A stretch of DNA of 36,300 bases, taken from assembly GCA_003696105.1 (NCBI GenBank), contig RFGE01000124.1, positions 1 to 36,300 of the forward strand, read 5' to 3'. A program made the position numbers and the translations under genes. This document shows positions 6,379 to 22,932 of the stretch, in pieces. The notes beneath the pieces are model-generated. The model had not been told where the DNA came from and did no database searches. It saw only the letters and a list, made by a program, of their open reading frames with translations. The DNA comes from Deltaproteobacteria bacterium. Lineage in GTDB: Bacteria > Myxococcota_A > Polyangia > Haliangiales > J016. Position 1 is the stretch's first letter, and each line of letters begins with the position of its first letter.

Positions 6379-6406
6379 GCCGCACGCGCCCGCCGTGGTA
6401 AACACC

Positions 6407-6445
6407 GGGGCGCGCGGGCCCCGGTTGCCCCCGGACGCGCGCCCC
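6407..6445 (+). promoter_or_regulatory. Leader hairpin before the NadE-like gene
   Basis: GGGGCGCGCG (6407-6416) and CGCGCGCCCC (6436-6445) are perfect 10-bp complementary arms around 19 bases, ending 33 bases before the ATG at 6479. If transcribed they would form a very stable leader stem. No T-run follows, so it is not a standard terminator. It could be a leader control element or a chance product of GC-rich sequence. Confidence 0.3.
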
Positions 6446-6478
6446 TTCCCGCCTACCCCTGCCACGGATACCGCACGC

Positions 6479-7492
6479 ATGTTCTCCGCCAGCGTCCTCC
6501 ATCTCGACCCGGCTGCCGAAGTCGCGCGCATCACGGAGGCCATTCGCCGCCAGGTCCGCGGCGAGCTGCGCCGCCGCGGCGCCGTGCTCGGCCTGTCCGG
6601 CGGCATCGACAGCTCGGTCGTCGCCGCCCTGTGCGCGCGCGCCCTCGGCGCCGACAAGGTCCTCGGGCTGTTCATGCCCGAGCGCGACTCGTCGCCCGAC
6701 TCGCTTCGCCTCGGCCGCATGGCCGCGTCCGCGATCGGCATCGAGGCGATCGTCGAGGACATCTCGCCTGCGCTCGAGGGCATCGGTTGCTACCAGCGCC
6801 AGCAGGAGGCGATCCGGCAGGTGTTCCCGGACTACGGCGACGGGTGGAAGTGCAAGATCACGCTGCCGTCGATCCTGGACCGCCAGCGGCTCAACGTGTT
6901 CCGGCTCACGGTCGAACGCCCCGACGGCGAACGCCGCACCGAACGCATGCCGCTCGGCGCCTACTTGCAGCTCGTCGCGGCGACCAACTTCAAGCAGCGC
7001 GTGCGCAAGATGACCGAGTACTACCACGCCGACCGACTCAACTACGCGGTCGCCGGCACGCCGAACCGGCTCGAGTACGACCAGGGCTTCTTCGTCAAGC
7101 AGGGCGACGGGACGGCGGACTTCAAGCCGATCGCCCACCTGTACAAGACGCAGGTCTACCAGCTCGCCGAGTACCTCGGCATTCCCGACGAGATCCGCGC
7201 CGCGCCGCCGACCACCGACACCTATTCGCTCGAGCAGACGCAAGAGGAGTTCTACTTCGCGCTGCCGTACGACCGCATGGACCTGTGTCTGTACGCGTAC
7301 AACCACGGCATCCCGGCGGCGGAGGTCGCCGGTGCGGTGCAGCTCACGCCGGAACAGGTCGACCGGGTGTATCGCGACATCGCGGCCAAGCGGCGCGCGA
7401 CGCGGTACATGCACCAGCCGCCGCTGTTGGTCGAGCCGATCGAGGGCGTCGCGGCCGCCGGCGCGGGCGCGGCCCCGGAGGCGGGGCACTAG
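6479..7492 (+). CDS. NadE-like ammonia-dependent ligase (NAD+ synthase family)
   Basis: A 337-residue PP-loop ATP pyrophosphatase of the NAD+ synthase family. LGLSGGIDSS (38-46) is the ATP-binding loop; NFKQRVRKM, AGTPNRLEY, FFVKQGDG and LYKTQVYQLAEYLGIP (170-236) are the NadE core blocks. NadE adenylates the carboxylate of deamido-NAD and replaces it with ammonia. There is no glutaminase domain, so ammonia or a partner must supply nitrogen. It is longer than typical ammonia-dependent NadE (about 275), with an insertion around residues 103-165. I start at ATG 6479 because upstream in-frame residues are Pro/Ala noise. The AsnB-like gene begins 5 bases after its stop. It may be the house NAD+ synthase or a paralogue that amidates another carboxylate; the operon favours the latter. 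Confidence 0.85.
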   Translation: MFSASVLHLDPAAEVARITEAIRRQVRGELRRRGAVLGLSGGIDSSVVAALCARALGADKVLGLFMPERDSSPDSLRLGRMAASAIGIEAIVEDISPALEGIGCYQRQQEAIRQVFPDYGDGWKCKITLPSILDRQRLNVFRLTVERPDGERRTERMPLGAYLQLVAATNFKQRVRKMTEYYHADRLNYAVAGTPNRLEYDQGFFVKQGDGTADFKPIAHLYKTQVYQLAEYLGIPDEIRAAPPTTDTYSLEQTQEEFYFALPYDRMDLCLYAYNHGIPAAEVAGAVQLTPEQVDRVYRDIAAKRRATRYMHQPPLLVEPIEGVAAAGAGAAPEAGH

Positions 7493-7497
7493 CCGCG

Positions 7498-9561
7498 ATG
7501 TGCGGCATCGCGGGGATCGCGAGTCGCCGCGGCGCGAGTCCGCCGCCGCCGCGCGACGCGCTCGTGCGGATGGCGCTCGCCCTGCGCCACCGGGGCCCCG
7601 ACGAGATGGGCGTGTTCCGCGACCGTCGCTGCGGCCTGGCGCACGCGCGGCTGTCGATCATCGACCTGGCCACCGGCCAGCAGCCGATGGGCACGGCCGA
7701 CGGGCGCTACTGGATCGCGTTCAACGGCGAGATCTTCAACTACGTCGAGCTGCGCGACGAGCTCGTCGCCGCCGGGCGCGCGTTCCGCACCCGCAGCGAC
7801 ACCGAGGTCATCCTGCACGCGTACGCGGAGTGGGGACTCGACGCGTTCGAGCGGTTGAACGGCCAGTGGGCGATCGCGCTGTGGGACCGCGCGCGCCGCG
7901 AGCTGGTGCTGGCGCGCGACCGCGTCGGCATCCGGCCGCTGCACGTGTGCGAGCGCGGCGACCGCGTCTACTTCGCCAGCGAGGTCAAGGCGATCTTCGC
8001 CGCCGACCCGGCCATTCCGCGGGCGCTCGACCCGCGCGGTCTCGACCAGACGTTCACGTTTTGGAGCCCCGTGCCGCCCGACACGGCGTTCGCCGCCGTG
8101 CGCGAGGTGCGGCCGGGCCACGTTCGTGTCTACCGCGACGGCGACGTGGTCGAGCGGCCGTACGACGCGCCGCGGTTTCCGACCGGGCCCGGCGACGGGT
8201 ATTCCGGCTCGCTCGACGAGGCGGTCGCCGCGGTGCGCGCGGCGCTCGAACGCGCGACGTCGCTGCGGATGTTGCGCGCCGACGTGCCGGTCGGCAGCTA
8301 CCTGTCGGGAGGCCTCGACAGTTCGTTGGTCGCCGCGCTCGGCCGCAGAGCGATCGGCGACCGCTTTCACACGTTCTCGCTGCGATTTGCAGACGCCGAG
8401 TACGACGAGACCGAGTATCAACGGACGATGGTCGCCCGCCTCGGCAGCGACCATCACGAGATCGTGGTGTCGCGGCGCGACGTGGCCGACGTGTTCCCGG
8501 CGGTCGTCGCGCACACCGAGCGCCCCGTGCTGCGAACCGCTCCCGCGCCGCTGTTCTTGCTGTCGCGGCTCGTGCGCGATACGGGCATCAAGGTCGTCCT
8601 CACCGGCGAGGGCGCCGACGAGATGTTCGCGGGGTACGACCTGTTTCGCGAGGGCGTCGTCCGCCGCTTCTGGGCGCGCCAGCCCCAGTCGAGGCTGCGC
8701 CCGTTGCTGCTGCAAAAGTTGTATCCGTACCTGGCGCGGTCGCCGGTGTCGCAGCAGGCGATGGCGCGCCGGTTCTTCGGCCGCAATCTCGACCGCTGGC
8801 GCGAGCCCGACTTCACTCACGACACCCGGTGGCACACCACCAGCGGGCTCAAGCGGTTGTTTTCCGCCGACCTGCGCGCGGCGCTCGCCGGGGTCGACGC
8901 GGTCGCCGAACTCCTCGCCGACCTGCCGCCGGAGTTTTCGCGGTGGTCGTATCTCGCGCGCGATCAGTACCTCGAGATTCGCACCCTGCTGGCCGGCTAT
9001 CTGCTGTGCTCCCAGGGCGACCGAATGCTGATGGCCCACTCGGTCGAGGGCCGCTTTCCGTTTCTCGACCCCGACGTCGTCGCGCTGGCCCACTCGCTGC
9101 CGCCGGAGTACAAGCTGCGCGTGCTCGACGAAAAGCACGTGCTCAAGCGGGCGGCAGCCGACCTCGTGCCCGCGGCGATCCGGACGCGCCCGAAGCAGCC
9201 GTACCGCGCACCGGACGCGCTGGCGTTCGTCGGCGACGGCGCGCTTCCCGACTACGCGGCCGAGTGCTTGAGCGAGCGCGCCATCGTCGAGGCCGGCGTG
9301 TTCGACCCGAAGGCGATCGCGCAGCTCGTCGGCAAGTGCGTGCAACGCGCGGGCGCCGGCCAGTTCTCCAACGCGGACAACATGGCGATCGTCGGCGTGC
9401 TGTCGACGCAGCTTCTGCACGAGTGCCTGGTGCGCGCGGCGCCCGACGCCGGCGACCCGGACGCGGCGGTGCTCACGACCGACGTATCGATCGATTCCGA
9501 CGACGTGGACCCATCGGCGGCCGCCGGACCGGCGCGCCGCGACTGCGGAGGACACCGATGA
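7498..9561 (+). CDS. AsnB-like glutamine-dependent amidotransferase
   Basis: A 687-residue class-II glutamine amidotransferase. MCGIAGIASR gives the N-terminal Cys nucleophile after Met removal; RHRGPDE, FNGEIFNY and SDTEV are the glutaminase-domain blocks. SGGLDSS (270-276) is the synthetase PP-loop, followed by LTGEGADEMFAGYD and FPFLD. The family moves the amide nitrogen of glutamine to an adenylated carboxylate, classically aspartate to asparagine. Many homologues in polysaccharide and natural-product clusters amidate other substrates or form lactams. The gene follows the NadE-like gene by 5 bases and its stop overlaps the next start (ATGA). A poorly ordered acidic tail follows about residue 655. 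Assigning asparagine as the product would be unsafe given the neighbours. Confidence 0.9.
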   Translation: MCGIAGIASRRGASPPPPRDALVRMALALRHRGPDEMGVFRDRRCGLAHARLSIIDLATGQQPMGTADGRYWIAFNGEIFNYVELRDELVAAGRAFRTRSDTEVILHAYAEWGLDAFERLNGQWAIALWDRARRELVLARDRVGIRPLHVCERGDRVYFASEVKAIFAADPAIPRALDPRGLDQTFTFWSPVPPDTAFAAVREVRPGHVRVYRDGDVVERPYDAPRFPTGPGDGYSGSLDEAVAAVRAALERATSLRMLRADVPVGSYLSGGLDSSLVAALGRRAIGDRFHTFSLRFADAEYDETEYQRTMVARLGSDHHEIVVSRRDVADVFPAVVAHTERPVLRTAPAPLFLLSRLVRDTGIKVVLTGEGADEMFAGYDLFREGVVRRFWARQPQSRLRPLLLQKLYPYLARSPVSQQAMARRFFGRNLDRWREPDFTHDTRWHTTSGLKRLFSADLRAALAGVDAVAELLADLPPEFSRWSYLARDQYLEIRTLLAGYLLCSQGDRMLMAHSVEGRFPFLDPDVVALAHSLPPEYKLRVLDEKHVLKRAAADLVPAAIRTRPKQPYRAPDALAFVGDGALPDYAAECLSERAIVEAGVFDPKAIAQLVGKCVQRAGAGQFSNADNMAIVGVLSTQLLHECLVRAAPDAGDPDAAVLTTDVSIDSDDVDPSAAAGPARRDCGGHR

Positions 9562-11129
9562 CGACGCTCGAGTTGCACGGCGCAGTGCCTCAACTGCACG
9601 ACTACATCTTGCGCGCGGCGCGCCAGTGGCCCGACAAGGTGGCGGTCGTCTACGGCGACGACCGCGCGACGTTCGCCGACCTCGACGCGCGATCCAACGC
9701 GCTGGCGCACGCGCTCGCCGCTCGCGGCGTCGACCGCGGCGACCGCGTGATCGTGTTCGCCGACAACACCATCGAGACGGCCGTGGCGTTTTGGGCCGTG
9801 CTCAAGGCGAATGCGGTCGTGTCGGTCGTCAATCCGCTCACCAAGGCGGACAAGCTGCGCTACCTGGTCGACGACTGCCGTGCGGCCGCGTTGATCACGG
9901 ACGCCCACCTGCGGCGGGTGTTCGAGCCGGCGGTGGCGCAGGCCAAGTCCGTAAAGACCGTGATCGTGTCGGGCGATTACCCGGCCGGCGCCCTCGCGTC
10001 GCTGCCGGGCGGCGTCGCGTGGGCCGACGCGCTCGCCAGCGGCGACCCCGGAGCACCACCGGAGCGGCGCAACCACGAACTCGATCTGGCGTCCATCATC
10101 TACACCTCCGGGTCGACCGGCGAACCCAAGGGCGTGATGCTCACGCACCGCAACATGCTCACCGCGGCGACGTCCGTCGGCACGTACCTGGAGATCGCCG
10201 AATCGGACGTGATCCTGTGCGCCCTGCCGCTGGCGTTCGACTACGGCCTGTACCAGATGATCATGGCCGCGCGCTGGGGTGCGCGCCTGGTGCTCGAACG
10301 CAGCTTCGCGTTTCCCGCCAAGGTGCTGGCCAAGATGGCCGCGGAGCGCGTCACGGTGTTTCCGGGCGTGCCGACCATCTTCGCGTTGCTCGCGCAGTTC
10401 AAGCACATCGATCGCTACGACCTGTCCGCGATCCGCGCGGTGACCAACACGGCCGCCGCCCTGCCGGTCAAGCACATCACCATGCTGCGAGAGATGTTTC
10501 CCCAGGCGAAGATCTTTTCGATGTACGGGCTCACCGAGTGCAAGCGATGCAGTTACTTGCCGCCCGAGCTGATCGACGTCAAACCCGACAGCGTCGGGAT
10601 CGCGATCCCGAACACGGAGCTGTGGATCGTCGACGACGACGGCAACCGCGTCGGCCCCGGCGTGGTCGGCCAGCTCGTCGTGCGCGGCGCAACCGTGATG
10701 CGGGGCTACTGGGAAAAGCCGGAGGCGACCGCGAAGAAGCTGCGGCTGGGGCCGCTGCCGGGCGAGACCGTGCTGTACACCGGCGACTATTGCAAGATGG
10801 ACGAAGACGGCCACCTGTACTTCGTCGGCCGCATGGACGACGTCATCAAGTCGCGCGGCGAGAAGGTCGCGCCGAAGGAGGTCGAGCAAGCGCTGTACGC
10901 GATCGAGGGCGTTCAGGAGGCGGCGGTGATCGGCGTGCCCGACGACATCCTCGGCCAGGCGATCAAGGCGTTCGTCGTGGTCGCGGACGGCGTGCCCCGC
11001 GACCCGCGCTGGATCCAGCGCGAGTGCCAAAAGCGCCTCGAGAACTTCATGGTGCCCAAGTACGTCGAGTTTCGCGACGCGCTGCCCAAGGGCGCGACCG
11101 GCAAGATTCAGAAAACGGAGCTGGCATGA
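9558..11129 (+). CDS. AMP-forming acyl-CoA/acyl-ACP ligase
   Basis: A 523-residue ANL-superfamily adenylating enzyme. YTSGSTGEPKGVM (182-194) is the phosphate-binding P-loop; YGLTECKRC, YTGDY and GRMDDVIKSRGEKV are the later core motifs; KGATGKIQK near the end supplies the adenylation lysine (Lys516). It activates a carboxylic acid as acyl-AMP and passes it to CoA or a phosphopantetheine carrier. The opening LHDYILRAARQWPDKVAV resembles ligases of exopolysaccharide-type clusters, but no exosortase is present here. GGAGGA sits 5 bases before the ATG, which overlaps the AsnB stop by 4 bases. With ACP1 downstream, acyl-ACP formation is the natural guess; the acid is unknown. Confidence 0.88.
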   Translation: MTTLELHGAVPQLHDYILRAARQWPDKVAVVYGDDRATFADLDARSNALAHALAARGVDRGDRVIVFADNTIETAVAFWAVLKANAVVSVVNPLTKADKLRYLVDDCRAAALITDAHLRRVFEPAVAQAKSVKTVIVSGDYPAGALASLPGGVAWADALASGDPGAPPERRNHELDLASIIYTSGSTGEPKGVMLTHRNMLTAATSVGTYLEIAESDVILCALPLAFDYGLYQMIMAARWGARLVLERSFAFPAKVLAKMAAERVTVFPGVPTIFALLAQFKHIDRYDLSAIRAVTNTAAALPVKHITMLREMFPQAKIFSMYGLTECKRCSYLPPELIDVKPDSVGIAIPNTELWIVDDDGNRVGPGVVGQLVVRGATVMRGYWEKPEATAKKLRLGPLPGETVLYTGDYCKMDEDGHLYFVGRMDDVIKSRGEKVAPKEVEQALYAIEGVQEAAVIGVPDDILGQAIKAFVVVADGVPRDPRWIQRECQKRLENFMVPKYVEFRDALPKGATGKIQKTELA

Positions 11130-11974
11130 CCGCGGTCGACCACGAACACAAACGCGCGGCCGAGCAGGAATTGCGGCGGCGACTCGCGGACGCGGGCGCC
11201 GACAACCCGGAGCGCGAGGCGGCTCGACTCGCGCGGGCGGTCGACGCGCGGCCCGACCTCGACGTCGACGCCGTGATCGCGCAGCGCGCGCGCGGCGTGC
11301 CGCTCGGGATGATCCTCGGCACCGAGGAGTTCATGGGCATCGAGCTGGAAGTGGCCGCCGGCGCGCTCGTTCCGCGCGAGGAGACCGAGTTGCTGGGCCG
11401 CACGGCGGTCGCCCGGCTGCAGGAGCTGGAGCCCGGGCGCGCGCCGCGGGTGATCGACATGTGCTGCGGCAGTGGCAACCTGGCAGTGGCGATCGCCGTC
11501 CACGTCCCGGCCGCGCGCGTGTGGGCGGCCGACCTCACCGAACCGTGCGTGGCGCTCGCGCGCCGCAACGCCGCGCGCGCGGGCGTCGCCGACCGCGTCG
11601 AGGTCGTGCAGGGCGACCTGTTCGAGCCGCTGCGCGACCGCGGCCTCGAGGGCACGATCGACCTCGTCGTGTGCAACCCGCCGTACATCTCGACGTCGCG
11701 ACTGGAAAAGGGCGACCGCCGCGCGCTGCTCGATCACGAGCCACGCGAGGCGTTCGACGGCGGCCCGTTCGGGCTGTCGATCCAGCAGCGCGTCGTCAAG
11801 GTGGCGGCTGACTTCTTGCGGCCGGGCGGCTGGCTGATGTTCGAGTTCGGCCTCGGCCAGGATCGCCAGATGACCGCGCTGTTTCGCCGGGCGCGGGTCT
11901 ACGACCACATCGCGACCGTCCCCGACCCGGACGGCAACCCCCGCGTCGCCGTCGCGTCGAAGAAACCCCTCTGA
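11126..11974 (+). CDS. PrmC/HemK-like SAM methyltransferase
   Basis: A 282-residue class-I SAM methyltransferase of the HemK/PrmC group. Residues about 60-95 (GTEEFMGIELEVAAG, PREETELL) match the region just before the PrmC catalytic domain. IDMCCGSG is the SAM loop, with Cys-Cys where the family usually has Gly-Thr. NPPY (184-187) is the motif that holds a planar amide nitrogen. PrmC methylates the Gln side-chain amide of release factors and normally sits beside prfA. Here no release-factor gene is near and the start overlaps the ligase stop by 4 bases (GGAG 5 bases upstream), so it is probably dedicated to this pathway. Its target could be an amide made by the neighbouring amidotransferases; that is inference. 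Confidence 0.8.
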   Translation: MTAVDHEHKRAAEQELRRRLADAGADNPEREAARLARAVDARPDLDVDAVIAQRARGVPLGMILGTEEFMGIELEVAAGALVPREETELLGRTAVARLQELEPGRAPRVIDMCCGSGNLAVAIAVHVPAARVWAADLTEPCVALARRNAARAGVADRVEVVQGDLFEPLRDRGLEGTIDLVVCNPPYISTSRLEKGDRRALLDHEPREAFDGGPFGLSIQQRVVKVAADFLRPGGWLMFEFGLGQDRQMTALFRRARVYDHIATVPDPDGNPRVAVASKKPL

Positions 11975-11993
11975 CCCTTCTGCCGATCGGACC

Positions 11994-12239
11994 ATGGACA
12001 CCAAACAGCAGATCCGCGAGTTCATCACGTCGAACTTCTACGTCGCCGACCCCGGCGCGCTCACCGACGACGCGTCGTTGCTCGACGCGGGCATCATCGA
12101 CTCCACCGGCGTCCTCGAGGTGATCGGATTCATCGAGGACACGTTTCAAGTCGAGGTCGACGACGAGGAGATGATTCCGGAAAACCTCGACTCGGTAAAC
12201 GCGATCGCGGCGTTCGTGGAGCGCAAGCGCGCCGGGTGA
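11994..12239 (+). CDS. Acyl carrier protein 1 (ACP1)
   Basis: An 81-residue acyl carrier protein of typical length. LLDAGIIDSTGVLEVIGFIE contains the DS motif, so Ser37 should carry the phosphopantetheine arm; the strongly acidic helix II/III region (EVDDEEMIPENLDS) is typical. It follows the methyltransferase by 19 bases in the same direction as the acyl ligase, the likely loading enzyme. It differs clearly from ACP2 further along the cluster, so the two probably carry different cargo. It is unlikely to be the fatty-acid synthase ACP, because no fab genes are near. Confidence 0.88.
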   Translation: MDTKQQIREFITSNFYVADPGALTDDASLLDAGIIDSTGVLEVIGFIEDTFQVEVDDEEMIPENLDSVNAIAAFVERKRAG

Positions 12240-12359: not shown

Positions 12360-12953
12360 GTGTTGGTGTTCGCGCGCGAGGTGTACGTGTGTCTGTGTCC
12401 GACGGACGTGGCGCCGCGCAGCCCCGCCGAACTCGAGCTCGACGCGCCGGTTCGGTTTCGCCGCGGCGCCGCCGACGATCTGGCCCGCCTCGACCGCGAC
12501 CACCACGACGACGCGCACCTGTCCGAGCTGGCCGAGCGGCTCGACCGGGGGGAATACTGGCTGCTCGCGGAGGTGGACGGCGAGGTCGTCGGCTACACGT
12601 GGCTGCACGCGCGGCCGACGGCGTCGTACCCGTCCCTGCCCGGCTGCACGATCGCGCTCGGCCCCGACACCGGCTACGGCTACGACGCGTGGACGGCGCC
12701 GTCTCACCGCGGCCGCGGCGTGCGGCGCGCCGGCTTCGTCGAGGAGCTGCGCGTGCTCGCCGGCTGGGGCAAGCGGTGGGAGGCGAGCTTCTTCGTCAAG
12801 CACCAGCTCGACGGCGCCACGCGGTCGCTCGCGGCCGCGGGCATCGCCGTGATGCCGATCTGGCGCATCTATCTGGCCGAGGACAGGACGCTCGCCGCCG
12901 AACAACTCGCGGAGTCCGACGCCGTGCGGCCGACGTTCGTAACCGCCGCGTAA
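12360..12953 (+). CDS. GNAT-family N-acetyltransferase
   Basis: A 197-residue protein starting at GTG 12360. The GNAT fold is shown by WLLAEVDGEVVGYTWLHA (beta strands 2-4, about 67-84) and by APSHRGRGVRRAGFVEEL (113-130), whose RGRGV is the acetyl-CoA/acyl-CoA pyrophosphate loop. GNAT enzymes transfer an acyl group from CoA, or sometimes from a carrier protein, to an amine. Set between the two carrier proteins and 2 bases before the next acyltransferase, it probably modifies an intermediate of this cluster. The 120-base gap before it holds only GC-rich sequence. The N-terminal 30 residues are not part of the fold, so the true start could lie slightly downstream. Confidence 0.75.
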   Translation: MLVFAREVYVCLCPTDVAPRSPAELELDAPVRFRRGAADDLARLDRDHHDDAHLSELAERLDRGEYWLLAEVDGEVVGYTWLHARPTASYPSLPGCTIALGPDTGYGYDAWTAPSHRGRGVRRAGFVEELRVLAGWGKRWEASFFVKHQLDGATRSLAAAGIAVMPIWRIYLAEDRTLAAEQLAESDAVRPTFVTAA

Positions 12954-12955
12954 CG

Positions 12956-13678
12956 ATGGCCGCCCTCGATCGGATCGTCGACGACCTGCTGCTGCGCGTC
13001 CGCCGCGGCGACTCCGCCGCGGCGCGCGCGGCGCGCGACGTGTATCGCTGGGCCTTGCGCTGGAACATGCCGGACACGCGCCTGACGCGGCCGCTGTTCG
13101 CGGCGCTGTATCGCGCGCACGACGGCTGGATCGCCGCGCGCGAGTTCGCGGCCGCCAAGCTGTTGATCGAGCCGATGGTGCGCGCGCGGTTCGACCGCGT
13201 CGGCGCCCGCCTGCACGTGACGTCGCTGCCGTACGTCGTCGGCCACGCGCGCATCGTGGTCGGCGACGACTGTCACTTCGGCTTGTTCTCGGTCAAGAGC
13301 GGGCGATTCTGCGACCGGCCGGAATTGATTTTCGGCAACCGCGTGTCGATCGGCCACGGCGTGCGCTTCGTGGTCAACCGGCGCGTCGCGATCGGCGATC
13401 GGGTCGGCATCGCCGCCGATTGCTGGATCGGCGACTCGGACGCCCATCCGACGGATCCGGACGCTCGCGCCGCGGGCGTGACCGAGCTACGCCCCGACGA
13501 CATTCGCCCGGTGCGGATCGAAGACGACGTGTGGCTGGGGATCGGCGCCAAGGTGCTCAAGGGCGCAACGATCGGCCGCGCCGCCGTGGTCGCCGCCGGC
13601 AGCGTCGTCACCGGCGATGTTCCGGCCGGGGCGCTGGCGATGGGAGTCCCCGCGCGCATCCTGAAGCGACCCTGGTGA
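12956..13678 (+). CDS. Left-handed beta-helix (hexapeptide) O-acyltransferase
   Basis: A 240-residue protein. About 95 N-terminal residues are helical; the rest is a left-handed beta-helix of hexapeptide repeats (IGHGVR, IGDRVG, IEDDVWLGIGAKVL, IGRAAVVAAGSVV) ending in GALAMGVPARILK, as in the maltose/galactoside acetyltransferase and WbbJ group. The DAHPTD loop (from about 159) provides the His expected for catalysis. The family transfers acetyl or other acyl groups to sugar hydroxyls or amines from CoA or ACP. It starts 2 bases after the GNAT stop and ends 5 bases before ACP2, so it may use an ACP2-bound group as donor. The acceptor is unknown. Confidence 0.82.
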   Translation: MAALDRIVDDLLLRVRRGDSAAARAARDVYRWALRWNMPDTRLTRPLFAALYRAHDGWIAAREFAAAKLLIEPMVRARFDRVGARLHVTSLPYVVGHARIVVGDDCHFGLFSVKSGRFCDRPELIFGNRVSIGHGVRFVVNRRVAIGDRVGIAADCWIGDSDAHPTDPDARAAGVTELRPDDIRPVRIEDDVWLGIGAKVLKGATIGRAAVVAAGSVVTGDVPAGALAMGVPARILKRPW

Positions 13679-13683
13679 ACGAC

Positions 13684-13962
13684 ATGACCGTCGACGCAAC
13701 ACATTCCGGTTCCGGCGGCACGCCGGACGCAAGCGATCTCGATCGCGTACGCGCGATCGTCGCCGGCATCGCCGGCCTGTCCGACCCGAGCGCGATCAAC
13801 CCTCGCGCCGACCTGTACCGCGACGTCGGCGTCAAGTCGGTCCGCGCGCTCGACCTGCTGCTGTCGCTCGAAGACGCGTTCGGCGTCCAGATCCCGGACG
13901 AGGCGTTCGGCGACGCGCGCACGGTCGAGGCGCTCGCCGACCTCGTCCGCCGACTGCGCTAG
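13684..13962 (+). CDS. Carrier protein 2 (ACP2), probable amino acid carrier
   Basis: A 92-residue carrier protein. LYRDVGVKSVRALDLLLSLE places the phosphopantetheine serine at Ser52, but the usual Asp before it is replaced by Lys (VKS instead of DS), and the protein is less acidic around helix II than ACP1. That is a feature to expect in a carrier recognised by an unusual ligase. Start is ATG 13684, or GTG 13675 directly at the stop of the preceding gene. It faces the amino acid:[carrier protein] ligase gene across 230 bases. Ligases of that family are known to charge a carrier encoded beside them, which makes ACP2 the best candidate partner. Confidence 0.83.
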   Translation: MTVDATHSGSGGTPDASDLDRVRAIVAGIAGLSDPSAINPRADLYRDVGVKSVRALDLLLSLEDAFGVQIPDEAFGDARTVEALADLVRRLR

Positions 13963-14192: not shown

Positions 14193-15392
14193 TCACAGAC
14201 ACGACAGATTGCGCGACGCCACGAACGCGCACACGGGCTCGGGCCAGCGCGCCGGGTCGAGGCCGTGTTGCGTCGCGAACGCGTAGACGAACCGCTCGAC
14301 CCCGAACGCGGTGCAACCCGTGTCGGCCGGTTCGCCGCCCGCGAGCGACAGACCGAACGCGCTGCCAAAGAAATCGTGGTGGACGTTGAACGAGCCGAGC
14401 GCCAGCGGCCGGTCGCCGCCCGGGTCGTCCACCAGCAGCTCGAACTTGGTCTTGTTGGCGAGTTGGAAGTACGCCTGCGGGGCGAAGCGGTCGATGAAGA
14501 ACGGGTCCGTCGCCGTCTCGATCCAGTAGCGCATACCGAGTTCGTCGAGCCAGCGCGTGACCCGGTCCACGCTGTCGGCGCGGGCTCGCGCGACGCGATC
14601 GCGATCGCCGATGAAGATGATCTCGCGCATGTGGAAGTCCCACAGGCGCGCCGCACAATCGAGCCGATCGCGTTCGTGGCGAAAGCAGTTGCCGATCGCG
14701 GTGGCGCAGACGAGCTCGCCGGGCGCCAGCCGCCGGCCTCGCACCGCCTCGTAGCAGTGAATGCACACCGTCGGACTGAGCACGTGGTCCGGCTCGGCGG
14801 CGCTGGCCAACCGCGATCCGCCGCCGGCGACACTGCGGCGGAAGGCGTCGATCGCCGCGGAATCGCCGCGCAAGGGCGGGGCGAGCGTGATGTGGTGCGG
14901 AAACGACTGCAGGTACTCGGCCCTCTCGAGCGTCTCGATCGAGATCAGCGTCGGGAACGCCGCGCGCGCCGCGCCGAACTCCGCCGCGATCGCCTCGAAC
15001 TGCTCGTCGAAGTAGTCGTACAACGCGAGCGCGGGGCCCTGCAGCGCGACGCGCCCGGCGTCGAACGGGACGAGCCAGCGCCGGGCGATCAGATCGTCGA
15101 GCACCGGCCGGGACGGCGGGGCCGCCCGATCGCGCCGGTCGACCCACACCTCCGTCGGAACGCGAAACGCGCCGCGCGCGATCGCCGCGTACAGCTCGGC
15201 CAATCGCGCCTCGACCGCGGCGCCGTCGCCGCCCGGCCGCAGCCACACGTCGACGAACGCGCGCCCGGCCACATCCGGAGCGAACCGCTCGATGTCCGGC
15301 GAACAGTACGGCAGGCGGTCGACGAACGCGCGATACGCCGGCTCGGTCGCCGGCGACGGGAGCGCGAACCGAAACGATGGCGGACGCACCAC
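14193..15392 (-). CDS. Amino acid:[carrier protein] ligase (atypical SerRS-like)
   Basis: A 399-residue class-II aminoacyl-tRNA-synthetase-like protein without a tRNA-binding domain. ATAIGNCFRHERDRLDCAA contains motif 2 (Arg238-His-Glu240), DFHMREIIFIGD follows, and CTAFGVERFVYA is motif 3 with Arg367. Cys210 (or Cys213), Glu257 and Cys360 fit the Cys/Glu/Cys zinc triad of the family, which descends from methanogen-type seryl-tRNA synthetase. Such enzymes adenylate a small amino acid such as glycine or alanine and load it onto phosphopantetheine of a carrier protein. The protein is longer than the usual 310-330 because of an N-terminal extension of about 80 residues. It starts at GTG 15392 and is convergent with ACP2. 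The amino acid cannot be read from sequence. Confidence 0.85.
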   Translation of the reverse strand: MVRPPSFRFALPSPATEPAYRAFVDRLPYCSPDIERFAPDVAGRAFVDVWLRPGGDGAAVEARLAELYAAIARGAFRVPTEVWVDRRDRAAPPSRPVLDDLIARRWLVPFDAGRVALQGPALALYDYFDEQFEAIAAEFGAARAAFPTLISIETLERAEYLQSFPHHITLAPPLRGDSAAIDAFRRSVAGGGSRLASAAEPDHVLSPTVCIHCYEAVRGRRLAPGELVCATAIGNCFRHERDRLDCAARLWDFHMREIIFIGDRDRVARARADSVDRVTRWLDELGMRYWIETATDPFFIDRFAPQAYFQLANKTKFELLVDDPGGDRPLALGSFNVHHDFFGSAFGLSLAGGEPADTGCTAFGVERFVYAFATQHGLDPARWPEPVCAFVASRNLSCL

Positions 15393-16225: not shown

Positions 16226-17854
16226 ATGCGACCGCTCGTCGACGTCGCGGCCGACCTGGGCATTTCGCCGGCCGCGCTGCAGCCCTATGGCAACTTCGCG
16301 GCCAAGGTCGATCCGGCCCGGATCGACGCGCCCGCCCCGGCCGCGCCGAAGCTGATCCTGGTGTCGGCGATCACGCCGACGCCGGCCGGCGAAGGCAAGA
16401 CGACCACGACGATCGGCCTCGGGGACGCGCTCGCGCGCCTCGGTCACCGCGTGTGCATCGCGCTGCGCGAACCGTCGCTGGGCCCGTGCATGGGCATCAA
16501 GGGCGGCGGCACCGGCGGCGGCCGCGCCCAGGTCGTGCCGTCGGACCGCATCAACCTGCACTTCACCGGCGACTTCCACGCGATCACGTCGGCCCACAAC
16601 CTGATCGCGGCCGTGCTCGACAACCACATCCACTTCGACCGCGAACCGGACATCGATCCGCGGCGCGTGCTGTGGCCGCGCGTGCTCGACATGAACGACC
16701 GCGCGCTGCGCCACATCGTGCTCGGACTCGGCGGCAAGGCCAACAGCATCCCGCGCGAAGGGGGCTTCGACATCACCGCCGCGTCGGAGTTGATGGCGAT
16801 CCTGTGCCTGGCCGAGGACGCGGATGATTTGCGGCGCCGAATCGACCGGATTCTCGTCGCGTTCGCCCGCACCGGCGAGCCGGTGGCGGCCGCGGCCCTG
16901 CGCACCACCGGCGCCGCCCTCGCGCTGCTGCGCGACGCGATGTTCCCCAACCTCGTCCAGACCCTCGAGGGAACACCGGCGCTCGTCCACGGCGGCCCGT
17001 TCGCCAACATCGCGCACGGCTGCAACAGCGTGATCGCGACGAAGCTCGGCCTGCGGGTCGCCGACTGGGTGGTCACCGAGGCCGGGTTCGGCTTCGACCT
17101 CGGCGCCGAGAAGTTTTACGACATCAAGTGCCGCAGCGCGGGCCTCGACACCGCGGCCGTCGTGCTCGTCGCGTCCGTACGCGCGCTCAAACTCCACGGC
17201 GGCGTCGCGGTCGACGCCCTCGATCGCCCGAACCCGGACGCCGTCGACCGCGGCCTGCCCAACCTCGAAAAGCACATCGAGAACATCCACATGTTCACGG
17301 AGCTGCCGGTCGTCGCGCTCAACCGGTTCGGCGCCGACACCGATGAGGAGATCGACGTCGTCCGTCGGTTCTGCAGCGACCGCGGCATCGAGTTCGCGGT
17401 CGCCGAGCACTTCGACCGGGGCGCGGAGGGCGCGGTCGACCTCGCGCGCGCGGTCGTGCGCCAGGCCGAGCGCGATCAGACCCGGTTCCGCCCGCTGTAC
17501 GAGCTGGCGCAGTCGGTGCCGGACAAGATCCGCGCGGTCGCGACGCGCATGTACGGAGCGTCCGACGTCGCCTTCACCAAGCAGGCCGAGCGCGACCTGG
17601 CCGACATCGCGCGGCTCGGCTACGACAAGCTGCCGGTGTGCATCGCGAAGACGCACAGCTCGCTGTCTGACGATCCCAAGCTGCGCGGCCGACCGCGCGA
17701 CTTCGACGTGACCGTGCGCGCGATTCAGATCAACGCCGGAGCCGGCTTCCTGGTCGTGCTCACCGGCGACATCTTGCGCATGCCGGGGCTGCCGCGGACT
17801 CCGCGCGCCGAATCGATCGATCTTCACGGCCAGGACGTCGTGGGGCTGCAGTAG
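16226..17854 (+). CDS. fhs: Formate-tetrahydrofolate ligase
   Basis: A 542-residue protein matching formate-THF ligase over its full length (family about 555). PTPAGEGKTTTTIGLGDAL (from residue 51) is the ATP-binding loop; EPSLGPCMGIKGGGTGGG, NRFGADTDEEI and LPVCIAKTHSSLSDDP are family signatures. It makes 10-formyl-tetrahydrofolate from formate, THF and ATP in the cytoplasm, supplying purine and formyl-Met synthesis or C1 assimilation. ATG 16226 is preceded by the -10-like TACACT at 16212-16217 and no ribosome binding site, so the transcript may be leaderless. Its last 31 bases overlap the 3' end of the convergent glycosyltransferase gene. Confidence 0.96.
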   Translation: MRPLVDVAADLGISPAALQPYGNFAAKVDPARIDAPAPAAPKLILVSAITPTPAGEGKTTTTIGLGDALARLGHRVCIALREPSLGPCMGIKGGGTGGGRAQVVPSDRINLHFTGDFHAITSAHNLIAAVLDNHIHFDREPDIDPRRVLWPRVLDMNDRALRHIVLGLGGKANSIPREGGFDITAASELMAILCLAEDADDLRRRIDRILVAFARTGEPVAAAALRTTGAALALLRDAMFPNLVQTLEGTPALVHGGPFANIAHGCNSVIATKLGLRVADWVVTEAGFGFDLGAEKFYDIKCRSAGLDTAAVVLVASVRALKLHGGVAVDALDRPNPDAVDRGLPNLEKHIENIHMFTELPVVALNRFGADTDEEIDVVRRFCSDRGIEFAVAEHFDRGAEGAVDLARAVVRQAERDQTRFRPLYELAQSVPDKIRAVATRMYGASDVAFTKQAERDLADIARLGYDKLPVCIAKTHSSLSDDPKLRGRPRDFDVTVRAIQINAGAGFLVVLTGDILRMPGLPRTPRAESIDLHGQDVVGLQ

Positions 17855-18918
17855 CGGCGGCGCGCGGCTGCGGCCGCGGCGGTGCCGAGCGCGATCGCCC
17901 GGTCCGGATCGCGCGCCAGCGCGGCGACGGCCTCGGCCAGCACGACCGGGTCGCGCGGCGGCACCAGCACGCCAGTCACGCCGGGCTCGACGTGGTCGAC
18001 CAGCGCGCCCGCGGCCGTGGCCACGACCGCGCGGCCGCGGCACATCGCCTCCACCGCGGTGAGACCGAACGTCTCGAACCAGCTCGGCACGACCACGATC
18101 GACGCGCCGGCGTAGTGGCGCGCGAGGGCATCGCGGCCGAGCCAACCGACGAGTTCGGCCTGCGGCGCGCTCGCGGAAAACCGCGCGCGCCAGCGAGCAT
18201 CGGCCCGCGGGTTTTCCGGGACGCCGCCGGCGACGACGAACCGAGCGCGCGGGCACGCGCGCGCGACGGCCGGAATCGCGGCGATCCACTCGGCGGTGCC
18301 GTTGACGTCGGAGAACCGCCCCGCGTACAGGATCGGGCCGCCACGGGCCGGGGGGCCGGCCGCCGCGAGCGCCGCCGCGCAGTCCGGCACCGGCAGCGCC
18401 GCGACCCGCAGGCGAGACGCACACTCCGGCACGTCGGCGGCCAGCGCGTCGGCCGCCGCGCGCGACGGCGCGATCACCTCGTCGGCGGCGCGAAGCAGCG
18501 CGCGCTGGGCGGCGACGCTGCGCGGTACGCTGCGGACGCCGCGCAGGGCGGCCTGCACCGCCTGGCACACGTGCGCCACGGCGACGACGCGCGCGCCGAC
18601 GCGACGGCACGCGTCATCCACTTCGGACCACAGTGTGCCATGGTGTAGATACACCACATCTGGCGCGAACGCGACGATGCGCGCGCGCGCCTCGTCGGCC
18701 GAGGCCGCGCCGAGCACGCGGACGATCCAGCCGCCGGCCCCGTCCTGTCGCACGCGAGGGGCGACCGCGCCGGCCGCGCGCGCGCGATAGCCGTCGAAGG
18801 ACACGACGCCGACGCACCAGCCGGCGTCCCGGTGGATCGCGACGATCGCGTCGACCGCGGTCGACATCCCGCCGATGCAGCGGGGCGGAAACCCGCGCGT
18901 AACGTGAACGACCCGCAT
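17824..18918 (-). CDS. GT4-family glycosyltransferase
   Basis: A 364-residue GT-B glycosyltransferase. The N-terminal Rossmann half begins MRVVHVTRGFPPRCIGG; the C-terminal half has ILYAGRF, and SWFETFGLTAVEAM gives the EX7E donor-binding pair (Glu282, Glu290) of GT4. It should transfer a sugar from a nucleotide donor with retention of configuration. The C-terminus stops soon after the usual ARRRY helix and reads into the overlap with fhs, so it is shorter than typical by perhaps 20 residues. The ATG overlaps the stop of the deacetylase gene by one base (TGATG). With that deacetylase it could make an amino-sugar glycoside; the acceptor is unknown. Confidence 0.88.
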   Translation of the reverse strand: MRVVHVTRGFPPRCIGGMSTAVDAIVAIHRDAGWCVGVVSFDGYRARAAGAVAPRVRQDGAGGWIVRVLGAASADEARARIVAFAPDVVYLHHGTLWSEVDDACRRVGARVVAVAHVCQAVQAALRGVRSVPRSVAAQRALLRAADEVIAPSRAAADALAADVPECASRLRVAALPVPDCAAALAAAGPPARGGPILYAGRFSDVNGTAEWIAAIPAVARACPRARFVVAGGVPENPRADARWRARFSASAPQAELVGWLGRDALARHYAGASIVVVPSWFETFGLTAVEAMCRGRAVVATAAGALVDHVEPGVTGVLVPPRDPVVLAEAVAALARDPDRAIALGTAAAAAARRRYCSPTTSWP

Positions 18919-19646
18919 CACACGTCGAGCCCGGCGAACGGATCGGCCGCGCCCGGCGGAAGCGGCGGCCCCGCGGCGACCGCGAACGCTTCGGTCGCGA
19001 GCAGCCGGTCCACCACGCCGGGCCACAGGAACGTGCGCGGATCGCCGCCGGCGAGCTGCGACGTGTGCGCCGCGAGCGCCGCGAGCTTGCGCGCGCGCAC
19101 CGGCGCGACGTCGACCACGAGCTGCGGCGCGCGCGGAGTCGGCGGCAGCGGATCGACGACCGGCGACGGCCGCAGCCGCCGCAGCGCGGCCCATACCGGG
19201 GTGAGCAACCCGGTCGGAAACACCGCGTGCAGAACGCGCACACCGGGCCCGACCGCCTCGGCCACCCCGCGGCTCACGGCGATGTGGTCGCGGTGGCCGT
19301 AGCCGCCGTCCGGGCCGAAGGTGACCACGACGTCCGGCCGCGCGCCGGCGAGCCACCGGCGCGCGGCGAGCGCGACGTCGCCGGCGGTGACCGCGCCGTC
19401 CGGCAGCCCCCACACCGTCGGCGGCGCCGCGCCGATCGCGCGGCACGCGGCGGCCAGCTCGCGCACGCGCACCGCCGCGAGCGGCCCGGCCACCGGCTCT
19501 CGCGCGCGCCCCGCCTCCCCTCGCGTCGCGCACACCACGTCGACGCGCGCGCCGCGCAGGGCGGCGAGGGAGAGCAGTCCGGCGGCCGCAAACGACTCGT
19601 CGTCCGGGTGCGCCCAGATGCCCGCGATCCGCACCCGGCGCCTCAC
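18918..19646 (-). CDS. LmbE/PIG-L-type zinc deacetylase
   Basis: A 242-residue LmbE-like N-deacetylase. AHPDDE (12-17) and GYGHRDH (115-121) give the His/Asp zinc ligands and catalytic Asp. RPDVVVTFGPDGGYGH is close in style to MshB of mycothiol synthesis. The family removes acetyl from GlcNAc groups on small glycosides or lipids. GTG 19646 overlaps the previous stop by 4 bases, and the stop overlaps the GT4 start, so expression is coupled. A GT4 plus LmbE pair is the arrangement that starts low-molecular-weight thiol pathways (mycothiol, bacillithiol), but no cysteine ligase is present here, so glycolipid or polysaccharide roles remain equally possible. Confidence 0.88.
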   Translation of the reverse strand: MRRRVRIAGIWAHPDDESFAAAGLLSLAALRGARVDVVCATRGEAGRAREPVAGPLAAVRVRELAAACRAIGAAPPTVWGLPDGAVTAGDVALAARRWLAGARPDVVVTFGPDGGYGHRDHIAVSRGVAEAVGPGVRVLHAVFPTGLLTPVWAALRRLRPSPVVDPLPPTPRAPQLVVDVAPVRARKLAALAAHTSQLAGGDPRTFLWPGVVDRLLATEAFAVAAGPPLPPGAADPFAGLDV

Positions 19647-20215
19647 AGCGCCAACGCGATCGCCAGCGCGATCGTCGCGCCGGTGGCGTCGGCGAACAGC
19701 AGAGCGTCGAGCGTGAGCCCGAACGCCTGGAACCTGGCGCGCCACGGCGCGCGCCGGCGCACCCGCTCCGTCGGGAGCGCCGATTGGCGAAGTCGTTCGG
19801 CGAGGTCGTCGAACCGCGCCCAGTCGCGCGCCGCCACGTACCAGGCGCCGCCGCGCCGCGACACCATCGCCACCGCGTCGTCGTACACGATCGCGCGCGC
19901 GAGTCGGTCCGTCCCCATACGAAAGCCGTACTGGCTCCACCCCCAGCGCACGCCGTCGCGATCGATCCGCAGTCGCGCGGCGCGCACCGCGTAACCGACG
20001 GCGGCCACCCCCAGGAACAACACCGGGGCGGCGAGCAGAATCTCGACCCCCGGCTGAAACTTTCGCCGCCACGCGAGCGTCCACGTGAGAACCGCGACGG
20101 CGAACACGTAGTAGAAGATCGCCTTCGCGCGGCGGCGCGCCGCCGGCCGCGCCTCGAACTCGCCGGCCGCCGCGCCGGCGAACTCCACCCCGGGCGGCGC
20201 GTCGACGGCGCTCAC
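19643..20215 (-). CDS. Small membrane protein with PH-like domain
   Basis: A 190-residue protein of unknown function. After a Pro/Ala/Glu start and a basic RPAARRRAKA segment come two predicted transmembrane helices (about 33-48 and 58-77), then a beta-rich stretch (LRIDRDGVRWGWSQYGFRMG and VAMVSRRGGAWYVAARDW) resembling bacterial PH-like domains, and a hydrophobic C-terminal end (about 170-190). GTG start overlaps the glnD stop, and its stop overlaps the deacetylase start, each by 4 bases, so it belongs to the operon. A similar hairpin-plus-beta protein is encoded at 30474-30956. Confidence 0.7.
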   Translation of the reverse strand: MSAVDAPPGVEFAGAAAGEFEARPAARRRAKAIFYYVFAVAVLTWTLAWRRKFQPGVEILLAAPVLFLGVAAVGYAVRAARLRIDRDGVRWGWSQYGFRMGTDRLARAIVYDDAVAMVSRRGGAWYVAARDWARFDDLAERLRQSALPTERVRRRAPWRARFQAFGLTLDALLFADATGATIALAIALAL

Positions 20216-22932
20216 CGGTCGGCCCCCTCGCGGCGCAGCGCGCGCTCGAGCGCCGCGCGGATGGCGCCGAGGCGGTCCGCGTCGTCGATCTTGCGCGGCG
20301 GCGTGCCCGCGGCGACGTAGAACGTGTCGGCCACGCGATTTCCCTCGGTAGCCACGCGCGACAGGAAGATATCGAGCCCCAACTCGGTGAGCGCGTTGGC
20401 GATCGTGTACAACACACCGACGCGGTCTTGGGTCACCACGTCGATGACCGTGTAGTCGTCAGACACGTCGTTGTCGATCGTGACCTGCGTCGGCACGGCC
20501 GGCTCGACCCGCGGCTTGAGCCCCGACGGTGGACGGCGGCGCGCGATGAGACGCCCCGCCTCGTCGACCCGCAGGCCGCGCTCGTCGAACAGCCCGCACA
20601 GGTCGGCGCGTACGCGGTCCCACCGCGGGTCGTCCTCCGGGATCGCGCGGCCCTGCGCGTCGCGCACGTAGAACACGTCGAGCGCCAGCGGATCGCCGCC
20701 GGGCGCGTCTCGCCGCGTGCCGACGACGGCGCCGAGAATGTCGATCCGGTGTGCCGCGAGCACGCCGGCGACCGCGGTGAGAAACCCCCGGGTGTCGCGG
20801 GACACGACCGCGGCTTCCGTGTGGCCGTGGCCCTTGCGGCGGTGAACCGACAGCTCCACCGGCGCGTCCGACCGCGCATACGCGCGCGCCAACCGGAAGT
20901 GCTCGACGATCTGCCGCTGGGCGAGCTGCGCGAAGTAGCGGTCCGGCAAGCCGGTAAAGAATGCGTCCACCTCGGCCTCGGTCCCGATCCCCTCGTCGAC
21001 GACCTGCATGCGCACGAGTTCGCGCAGCCGCCGCGCCGCGCGCTCCGCGTCGCCGTCGGCCGCCGCGTCCCCGCCGCGCAGATACGCGCGCGCCTTGACG
21101 TACAGCTCGCGCAACAGCTGGCCCTTCCACTCGGTAAGGTTGCCCGGCGCGGTCATCGCGGTGTCACAAAACGTGAGCACGAACAGCTGCGACAGCGTCT
21201 CCTCGTCGCCGATGCGGTCGGCGAATCGTGCGATCATCGCGTCGTCGGACAGATCCCGGCGCTGCGACAGGTGCGCCATCGTGAGGTGCTCGCGCACGAG
21301 CAGCGCCGTGCGATCCACGTCCTCGGCGTCGACGCCGAGGCGCTCGGCGATCGCGCGGGCCAGTCGCGCCCCCTTCTCGGCGTGGCCCTTGCCGAGCGGC
21401 TTGCCGACGTCGTGCAGCAGCGTCGCCAGATACAACGACACCGGCCGGCGGACCGCCCGCACGGCCTCGGTCACCGTCGGCGCGCGGTCGGCCAACTCGC
21501 CGCGCGCGATCCGCTTGAGCAACGCCACCGCGTACAACTGATGCTGGTCCACCGTGTAGACGTGGTACAGGTCGTGCTGCACGCGGCACGTGCACGGCGC
21601 CCATTCCGGCATCAGCGAGTTCAAGATGCCGAGGCCGTGCATCTGTTCGAGCAGCGATGGGCGGCGGTGATCGCGCGGATCGATGAGCGCGTCGACGAAC
21701 AGCCGCGAGGCCTCCCGATCGCCGGTGAGCAGGTCTGGACGTTGGGCGAGCCGCTCCGCGACGACATCGGCGGTGTGGGCATAGACGGGCATGTCCAGTT
21801 CGGCCGCGACGCGAAACAGCCGAACCATCTCCGACGGTCGCTGCGCAAATACGTCCGGATCCCGCGACGACAGCTTGCCATTGAATGCGACGAAGCTCGG
21901 ATCGATGCGCGCGATGCGAGGGCGCCGGCGCGGCGGCACGAGCGCGTATTCGAGCACGCGCTCGGCGATCTGCGTGACGGCGCGCGCGTGCAGGTAGTAG
22001 TCGCGCATCAGCGCCTCGACCGCGGGCGCCACCGCCGGCCGCGCGTCGCCCTCCGGCAGCGTCGCGTCCGGATACAGCTCCGGCGCGATCGCCTCCTGCA
22101 ACTCGAAGGTGAGCTGATCGGTCGCGCGCCCGGCCGCGAGCTGCACGCGCGCGCGCAGCTCGAGCAGCCGGTCGAGGGCGGCGGCCATCTGGCCCGCCTG
22201 GCGCGCCGACAACTCGCCCAGCGCGACCAGGTCGTCGAACGAGCGAACGCCCCACCGCGCCTGCGCCGCCCACAGAGCGGTCGCCAGGTCGCGCAGCGCG
22301 CCGATGCCCTGCTTGAGGTTCGGTTCGAGCAGGTACAAGGATGCGCCGAAGCGGTCGTGGCGCGCGCGCCGCTCGGCGGCGAGACGGTGGATGAAGTCGT
22401 TCGTGTTGCGGTCGCGCGCGACGGCGCGGGCGGTCGCGCGCGCCAGCTCGTCGGCGACAGCGCGGTCGCCGGCGAGCCAGCGCGCGTCGAGCAGCGCCGT
22501 CGCCGTGGGCAGGTCGTCGCGCGCGAGGCGGGCCGCGTCGCGCGGCGCGCGGATCGCGTGGCCGACCCGCCAGCCCGCGTCCCACATCGGGTAGAGCAGC
22601 GCGTCGGCGACCGCCCGCGGCGCGTCCGCCTCCGGCCGCGGCGCCAGCACGACGAAGTCGATGTCGGAAAAGGGGCACATCTGCTCGCGGCCCCACCCGC
22701 CGGTCGCGACCAACGCCAACCCCCGTGCCTCGGCGCCGGCGGCGCGCACCGCGTCGTCCCACAGCGCGCGAACCTCGTCGTCGTAGGCCCGCGACAGCGC
22801 ACGGCATGCCGCGAGGCCGCCGGCCCCGGCGTCGAGCCGAGCCGCCACGCCGCGGCGAGCGCGGTCGATCGCCTCGCGCAGGCGTGCCGCGCGGTCGCGC
22901 GGCGCGGCGGGCGGGGCGATCGGGTCGGTCAC
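20212..22932 (-). CDS. glnD: PII uridylyltransferase / uridylyl-removing enzyme
   Basis: A 906-residue GlnD with the full domain order. Nucleotidyltransferase: GGWGREQMCPFSDID (78-92), with the metal-binding Asp pair. HD phosphohydrolase: LLHDVGKPLGKGHAEKG (about 505). Two ACT domains: around 710 (TRGFLTAVAGVL) and 832 (QDRVGVLYTIANAL), which bind glutamine. GlnD adds UMP to PII when glutamine is low and removes it when glutamine is high, controlling nitrogen assimilation. It starts at GTG 22932, with a possible promoter placing the transcript start almost on the codon. It heads a four-gene operon with no other nitrogen genes, so the downstream membrane protein, deacetylase and glycosyltransferase may be co-regulated with nitrogen sensing or merely read through. 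Confidence 0.97.
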   Translation of the reverse strand: MTDPIAPPAAPRDRAARLREAIDRARRGVAARLDAGAGGLAACRALSRAYDDEVRALWDDAVRAAGAEARGLALVATGGWGREQMCPFSDIDFVVLAPRPEADAPRAVADALLYPMWDAGWRVGHAIRAPRDAARLARDDLPTATALLDARWLAGDRAVADELARATARAVARDRNTNDFIHRLAAERRARHDRFGASLYLLEPNLKQGIGALRDLATALWAAQARWGVRSFDDLVALGELSARQAGQMAAALDRLLELRARVQLAAGRATDQLTFELQEAIAPELYPDATLPEGDARPAVAPAVEALMRDYYLHARAVTQIAERVLEYALVPPRRRPRIARIDPSFVAFNGKLSSRDPDVFAQRPSEMVRLFRVAAELDMPVYAHTADVVAERLAQRPDLLTGDREASRLFVDALIDPRDHRRPSLLEQMHGLGILNSLMPEWAPCTCRVQHDLYHVYTVDQHQLYAVALLKRIARGELADRAPTVTEAVRAVRRPVSLYLATLLHDVGKPLGKGHAEKGARLARAIAERLGVDAEDVDRTALLVREHLTMAHLSQRRDLSDDAMIARFADRIGDEETLSQLFVLTFCDTAMTAPGNLTEWKGQLLRELYVKARAYLRGGDAAADGDAERAARRLRELVRMQVVDEGIGTEAEVDAFFTGLPDRYFAQLAQRQIVEHFRLARAYARSDAPVELSVHRRKGHGHTEAAVVSRDTRGFLTAVAGVLAAHRIDILGAVVGTRRDAPGGDPLALDVFYVRDAQGRAIPEDDPRWDRVRADLCGLFDERGLRVDEAGRLIARRRPPSGLKPRVEPAVPTQVTIDNDVSDDYTVIDVVTQDRVGVLYTIANALTELGLDIFLSRVATEGNRVADTFYVAAGTPPRKIDDADRLGAIRAALERALRREGADR

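Follow-up and report, generated by a model that had tools for sequence, protein, structure and literature searches.

Where does a carrier-protein ligase deliver its amino acid, and what is the additional domain that some of these enzymes appear to carry at the N-terminus? Both questions are raised by a gene in the 36,300-nucleotide stretch of a deltaproteobacterial contig (RFGE01000124.1) that was analyzed here and is called the window (Table 1). The carrier-protein ligases have been described as relatives of aaRS without the former tRNA-binding domain, with biological roles that are unclear (PMC9437257). The window belongs to a genome of 5.34 Mb, 98% complete, in which the ligase is a single-copy protein, two PPTase-superfamily matches are present, and a weak match to TIGR00415, on a different contig, is taken to be the organism's ordinary SerRS.

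Table 1. Positions of the features discussed, in the window and in the homologous unit of G285, a genome of the same class but another family (contig L137)
Feature	Sequence	Position	Strand	Remark
Predicted N-extended amino acid:[carrier protein] ligase	window	14193..15392	minus	399 aa, GTG start at 15392
Extra N-terminal domain, residues 1-95	window	15108..15392	minus	collinearity with the N-terminal region of archaeal-type SerRS over residues ~44-95
Cys210 codon, zinc-ligand candidate	window	14763..14765	minus	invariant in 112 aligned domains
Glu257 codon, zinc-ligand candidate	window	14622..14624	minus	Glu in 110 of 112, Asp in 2
Cys360 codon, zinc-ligand candidate	window	14313..14315	minus	invariant in 112
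Class II motif 2 (FRHE), residues 237-240	window	14673..14684	minus	R238 and E240 in 112 of 112
Class II motif 3 (GVERF), residues 364-368	window	14289..14303	minus	G364 and R367 in 112 of 112
ACP2, likely cognate carrier	window	13684..13962	plus	92 aa; Pfam PP-binding, 49.2 bits
Putative phosphopantetheine Ser52 (GVKS) of ACP2	window	13837-13839	plus	
ACP1	window	11994..12239	plus	81 aa; Pfam PP-binding, 28.5 bits
Left-handed beta-helix (LbH, hexapeptide) acyltransferase	window	12956..13678	plus	240 aa; Pfam Hexapep; 5 nt before ACP2
GNAT-family acyltransferase	window	12360..12953	plus	197 aa; Pfam Acetyltransf_1; 2 nt before the LbH gene
ACP	L137	15550-15798	same as ligase	52% identical to ACP2
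Ligase	L137	14354-15553		overlaps the ACP gene; 38% identical to the window ligase
LbH	L137	13636-14337		directly behind the ligase; G285 LbHs 44-46% identical to the window LbH
Second LbH	L137	12882-13634	same as ligase	in the same row
GNAT match	L137	9223-9798		52% identical to the window GNAT
Polysaccharide flippase gene	L137	7696-9162		

The assignment of the enzyme as an N-extended amino acid:[carrier protein] ligase is supported by its predicted fold, its catalytic residues and its genomic context. In phmmer searches of the PDB, residues 122-387 match Bll0957 (E 2.7e-37, ~30% identity) and residues 97-389 match the SerRS of M. kandleri (3w3s; E 3.9e-27), and Pfam recovers PF00587. The AlphaFold2 model of the full-length protein, computed from 35 sequences (pLDDT 90), matches Bll0957 (3PZC) in Foldseek with E 1.4e-25 and a TM-score by target of 0.89, a likeness far beyond chance that bears out the identity proposed in the first-pass annotation; the charging reaction itself we infer. 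The protein misses the curated cut-off of the family model NF005479 (163.8 against 357 bits), and other N-extended relatives tested score 116-174 bits; the cut-offs of the archaeal-type SerRS models are missed as well (PRK00960, 90.9 versus 611 bits; TIGR00415, 66.5 versus 489.55 bits).

Motifs 2 and 3 and an intact zinc triad, all claimed before any comparison, hold up when 112 catalytic domains, Bll0957 and two archaeal-type SerRS among them, are aligned; R249 and F253 are invariant too. The earlier choice between Cys210 and Cys213 as zinc ligand falls to the former, because position 213 is Cys in only 11 of the 112 domains and Cys210 never varies; Cys213 was dropped as a candidate. In two loci (L024, L026), Asp replaces the zinc-ligand Glu, giving C-D-C. 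The Cys/Glu/Cys residues suggest that the active site contains zinc. Their spacings are 47 and 103 residues in the window ligase versus 45 and 103 in Bll0957, so that the Glu-Cys distance given in the first-pass annotation was right, and the corresponding distances in the two SerRS are 110 and 106. Two positions separate the ligases from the SerRS: R256 is present in 108 and K316 in 110 of the 112 domains, whereas both SerRS have I and S/T there.

The additional N-terminal length is genuine. In the 318-aa model NF005479, position 18 corresponds to residue 93 of the ligase, which leaves ~75 extra residues, close to the 80 estimated at first, and many relatives share the region in conserved form; a false extension from a wrong start codon was therefore dropped from consideration. 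An in-frame TAG lies two codons upstream of the GTG start. The extension is not peculiar to the window protein but marks a widespread set: searches of related genomes and of GTDB contigs recovered a comparable extension in about 40 ligases from at least eight phyla, with named records in Myxococcota/Deltaproteobacteria, Acidobacteriota, Verrucomicrobiota, Planctomycetota, Zixiibacteriota together with GN15, Pseudomonadota, Actinomycetota and Bacillota. The comparison of sequences thus supports the view that these N-extended ligases have the N-terminal domain as a conserved component. Our search of the available literature for a described group of this kind, or for an aaRS-like ligase associated with an MBOAT, found none, although this does not prove that there is none. 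The first-pass annotation suggested that the extra region may serve carrier docking or regulation; carriers are charged by short ligases such as Bll0957, which lack the domain, so it is dispensable for carrier charging in general.

In the model of the full ligase, residues 7-85 of the extension are arranged in the order beta-alpha-beta-beta-alpha-beta, with strands at 7-10, 34-39, 46-51 and 82-85 and helices at 17-25 and 57-74. Modeled alone, the domain reaches a pLDDT of 82 and loses the last strand, and Foldseek finds no match for it at E <= 0.001, the best being S6-like and ferredoxin-like (E > 0.04); a known fold module was dropped as an explanation on this ground. Archaeal-type (methanogen) SerRS are mentioned as having a large tRNA-binding domain (PMC10817482), and the earlier statement that the extension has no tRNA-binding look is doubtful, because residues ~44-95 follow the N-terminal region of that SerRS collinearly; in the first ~43 residues we find no SerRS signal. 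Two SerRS sequences were compared, those of M. kandleri and M. barkeri (the latter identical to 2CIM), and the N-extended profile aligns to them beginning at profile positions 54 and 50, respectively. With the full profile, hhalign places window residues 44-160 on SerRS 126-249, and residues ~44-95 of the extension on SerRS ~126-185. PRK00960 matches three relatives (L050, L065 and L066) from residues 54-65 at a near-constant offset of 91-105. When columns 1-95 are shuffled, the profile-profile score drops from 54.5 to 44.0 on average (sd 1.4), with 0 of 200 shuffles as high, and shuffling columns 1-43 alone does not lower it. This collinearity, together with the drop in the score on shuffling 1-95 and not 1-43, points to a probable homology between residues ~44-95 and the last part of the N-terminal region of SerRS. 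Extending that homology to the whole domain was rejected, the domain-only hhalign comparison with SerRS being not significant, although in the same register as the full profile, and the signal being confined to residues ~44-95. The full tRNA-binding region that precedes the SerRS core is not present, the extension spanning only ~95 residues: the first ~100 SerRS residues are missing from the N-extended ligases, which keep ~50 residues matching the final part of that region in collinear order.

Conceivably, the domain was instead acquired separately, as a ferredoxin-like docking or regulatory module without descent from SerRS. The insignificant fold and profile matches of the isolated domain, and the silence of its first 43 residues, are compatible with such an origin, against which stand the collinearity of residues 44-95 beyond the level of the shuffles and the near-constant offset in several relatives; on balance, we regard a separate origin as possible but somewhat doubtful. 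The second half of the domain probably descends, in trimmed form, from the N-terminal region of archaeal-type SerRS and is missing in the short, Bll0957-type clade. In quick trees rooted on SerRS, with SH-aLRT support and long branches, the short ligases form one clade (support 98 in the full tree and 95 in a reduced set); the window ligase falls outside it and in the full tree groups with those of three genomes of the same class (L019-L021; support 97). In the full quick tree, the short clade sits inside the N-extended ligases. However, monophyly of the latter is not rejected by the AU test (p 0.395), and their status as a proven basal grade was accordingly dropped. A set of ligases retaining part of the SerRS N-terminal region makes the step of tRNA-domain loss testable.

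The genomic neighborhoods link the N-extended ligases to carrier proteins, and this association is well supported at the level of sequence and gene order. An ACP is encoded within 1.5 kb, in most cases within ~350 bp, at 25 of 41 N-extended loci, against a background of none in 413 kb of distal flank, a count that does not amount to 25 independent cases, since several loci are near relatives and the ACP profile was built partly from ACPs at the same loci. In four proteins, the ligase is fused to an ACP: one from Paenibacillus hunanensis (L084, 9686-11119) combines N-domain, ligase and C-terminal ACP, and in two from Gemmatimonadetes and one from an unidentified bacterium (L074, L075, L077), the ACP is at the ligase N-terminus. 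Nine proteobacterial loci combine the ligase with GNAT and LbH and have no adjoining ACP.

In the window, the partner is most likely ACP2. This carrier is 52% identical to the ACP whose gene overlaps that of the ligase in G285, and clusters with ACPs beside the Zixibacteria/GN15 ligases, homologies that support the pairing with ACP2 over ACP1. Counting against it, the ligase gene is convergent with, not co-transcribed with, the ACP2 gene, with 230 nt between the stop codons. The f16 genomes, which hold the nearest relatives of the window ligase, have no close ACP2 match, and no ACP lies near the ligases of L044 and L045, both of which look like contigs of two f16 genomes. No counterpart of ACP1 was found in the G285 locus. 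ACP1 stands in a row with NAD-synthase-like, AsnB, AMP-binding ligase and PrmC-like methyltransferase genes (6395-12239), possibly a separate acyl-activation module, and its partner is more likely the AMP-binding ligase (9558-11129) than the class II ligase. A scan for promoters and terminators gave nothing clearly above chance.

The enzymes next to ACP2 suggest where the amino acid might go: the LbH acyltransferase is a candidate user of aminoacyl-ACP2, and the GNAT a candidate second user. Acyl-ACP is a known substrate of LbH enzymes, LpxA for example, and of some GNATs. In G285, genes homologous to those for ACP2, the ligase and LbH lie on one strand as a single ACP-ligase-LbH-LbH operon. 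Strong matches to the window GNAT occur in only two of 289 other genomes of the class, one of them 4.5 kb from this operon. The Zixibacteria/GN15 loci likewise combine ACP, ligase, GNAT and LbH.

Elsewhere, other enzymes take the place of these transferases. At six loci (L062, L064 and L068-L071), genes for an MBOAT and a GxS/DxxH protein precede the ligase and an ACP gene follows it, with a PPTase gene in addition in Phyllobacterium leguminum (L064). All six MBOATs end in FXYXXF, described as the acyl-shuttle motif of DltX and PatA, and MBOAT/SGNH pathways other than Dlt operate without a carrier protein (PMC12148441); these loci could possibly encode a Dlt-like aminoacyl-envelope pathway of Gram-negative bacteria in which an aaRS-type enzyme replaces DltA. 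Five further loci (L046-L049 and L051) encode a shorter protein of the MBOAT BLAST cluster from which FXYXXF is absent, the L051 copy being assigned by this clustering because it has no Pfam match, and a GNAT is also found in L046, L047, L049 and L051. Two actinobacterial ligases (L058 and L076) adjoin NRPS genes, so that the acceptor is not the same throughout the group. Across N-extended loci, the receiving enzyme therefore differs and the carrier protein recurs; the recurrent pairing of ACP with LbH, GNAT or MBOAT translates into concrete predictions of the destination of the amino acid. It is tempting, if speculative, to regard the N-extended form as the earlier of the two layouts, an intermediate that connects archaeal-type SerRS with the short carrier-protein ligases; it would have kept a shortened tRNA-side N-terminal piece and would charge carriers for several unrelated types of acyltransferase (LbH/GNAT, MBOAT with the GxS/DxxH protein, NRPS), including Dlt-like aminoacylation of Gram-negative envelopes with an aaRS-type enzyme doing the work of DltA; we put this scenario forward as a tentative one.

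For the window, we consider it likely that the ligase loads a small amino acid on a carrier, most likely ACP2, for the LbH enzyme, with or without GNAT, in the decoration of a surface sugar. The ligase would adenylate the amino acid, by family analogy glycine, alanine or serine, with ATP at the zinc class II active site; the aminoacyl group would then move to the phosphopantetheine thiol of the carrier, and aminoacyl-S-ACP2 would serve as donor for LbH, perhaps together with GNAT, which would transfer the amino acid to a surface polysaccharide or glycolipid, or to a precursor, with a sugar as the attachment site. The supply of aminoacyl-ACP2 to LbH, and possibly GNAT, is the most economical reading of the neighborhood; sugar acceptor, amino acid and the role of the N-terminal domain are extrapolations. 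The short ligases have been proposed to serve amino acid ligation to a cell-surface sugar (PMC2922099), which fits; the NF005479 score, far under the curated cut-off, the proteobacterial loci without an adjoining ACP and the NRPS neighbors of two N-extended ligases are points against.

The aminoacyl-ACP might, instead, feed a small secondary metabolite or peptide, perhaps with the upstream AsnB, AMP-binding ligase, methyltransferase and ACP1, the genes of which adjoin GNAT-LbH-ACP2 on the same strand. The N-extended ligases beside NRPS genes lend this some color, but there is no NRPS or PKS among the window genes scanned, and G285 retains ACP, ligase, two LbH and GNAT without those upstream genes, with a polysaccharide flippase instead, so we judge a metabolite to be an unlikely product. 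A still less probable scheme dispenses with the carrier altogether, the aminoacyl-adenylate passing straight to an amino sugar or some other small compound, as in mycothiol synthesis, where MshC, a relative of class I CysRS, works with a glycosyltransferase, a PIG-L deacetylase and a GNAT. On the minus strand of the window, which is that of the ligase, ORFs for a glycosyltransferase (17824-19533) and a PIG-L deacetylase (18918-20417) lie 2.4 kb away and further, recalling such pathways by analogy only, and a GNAT is at hand; yet the class of MshC differs, many relatives have an ACP gene beside the ligase gene or fused to it, and neither ORF has a match in the G285 locus, all of which makes direct transfer highly improbable. 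Finally, the significant likeness to archaeal-type SerRS, which reaches part of its N-terminal region, and the nearby GNAT recall VlmL, which supplies VlmA, and a tRNA-charging SerRS paralog delivering aminoacyl-tRNA to the GNAT might be envisaged. Such a role we hold to be scarcely credible in view of the ~100 absent SerRS residues, the ligase-type residues at 256 and 316, and the association and fusion with ACP.

Among the known systems nearest to it are the Bll0957-type ligases (3MEY, 3MF1, 3PZC, 4H2S; NF005479), with which the window ligase shares the core, motifs 2 and 3, the Cys-Glu-Cys set with its Glu-Cys distance, a carrier protein gene nearby and the lack of a full SerRS tRNA-binding domain, and from which it differs in the conserved N-terminal domain, the modest identity and its position outside the short clade. 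With archaeal or methanogen-type (type 2) SerRS (2CIM, 3W3S), it has in common the zinc class II core and the collinear residues ~44-95, but it lacks the preceding N-terminal residues, carries R256 and K316 in place of I and S/T, and sits in a carrier-protein context. The AlmE-AlmF-AlmG system of V. cholerae and Dlt esterify lipid A or teichoic acid with aminoacyl groups through a carrier (PMC4790380, PMC12148441), and the proposed logic, in which an acyltransferase would pass a carrier-loaded amino acid on to a molecule of the envelope, would be shared with both; unlike these systems, the putative pathway described here would rely on a class II aaRS relative rather than an ANL-type adenylation enzyme for activation, and on LbH and GNAT, rather than AlmG or an MBOAT, as candidate transferases.
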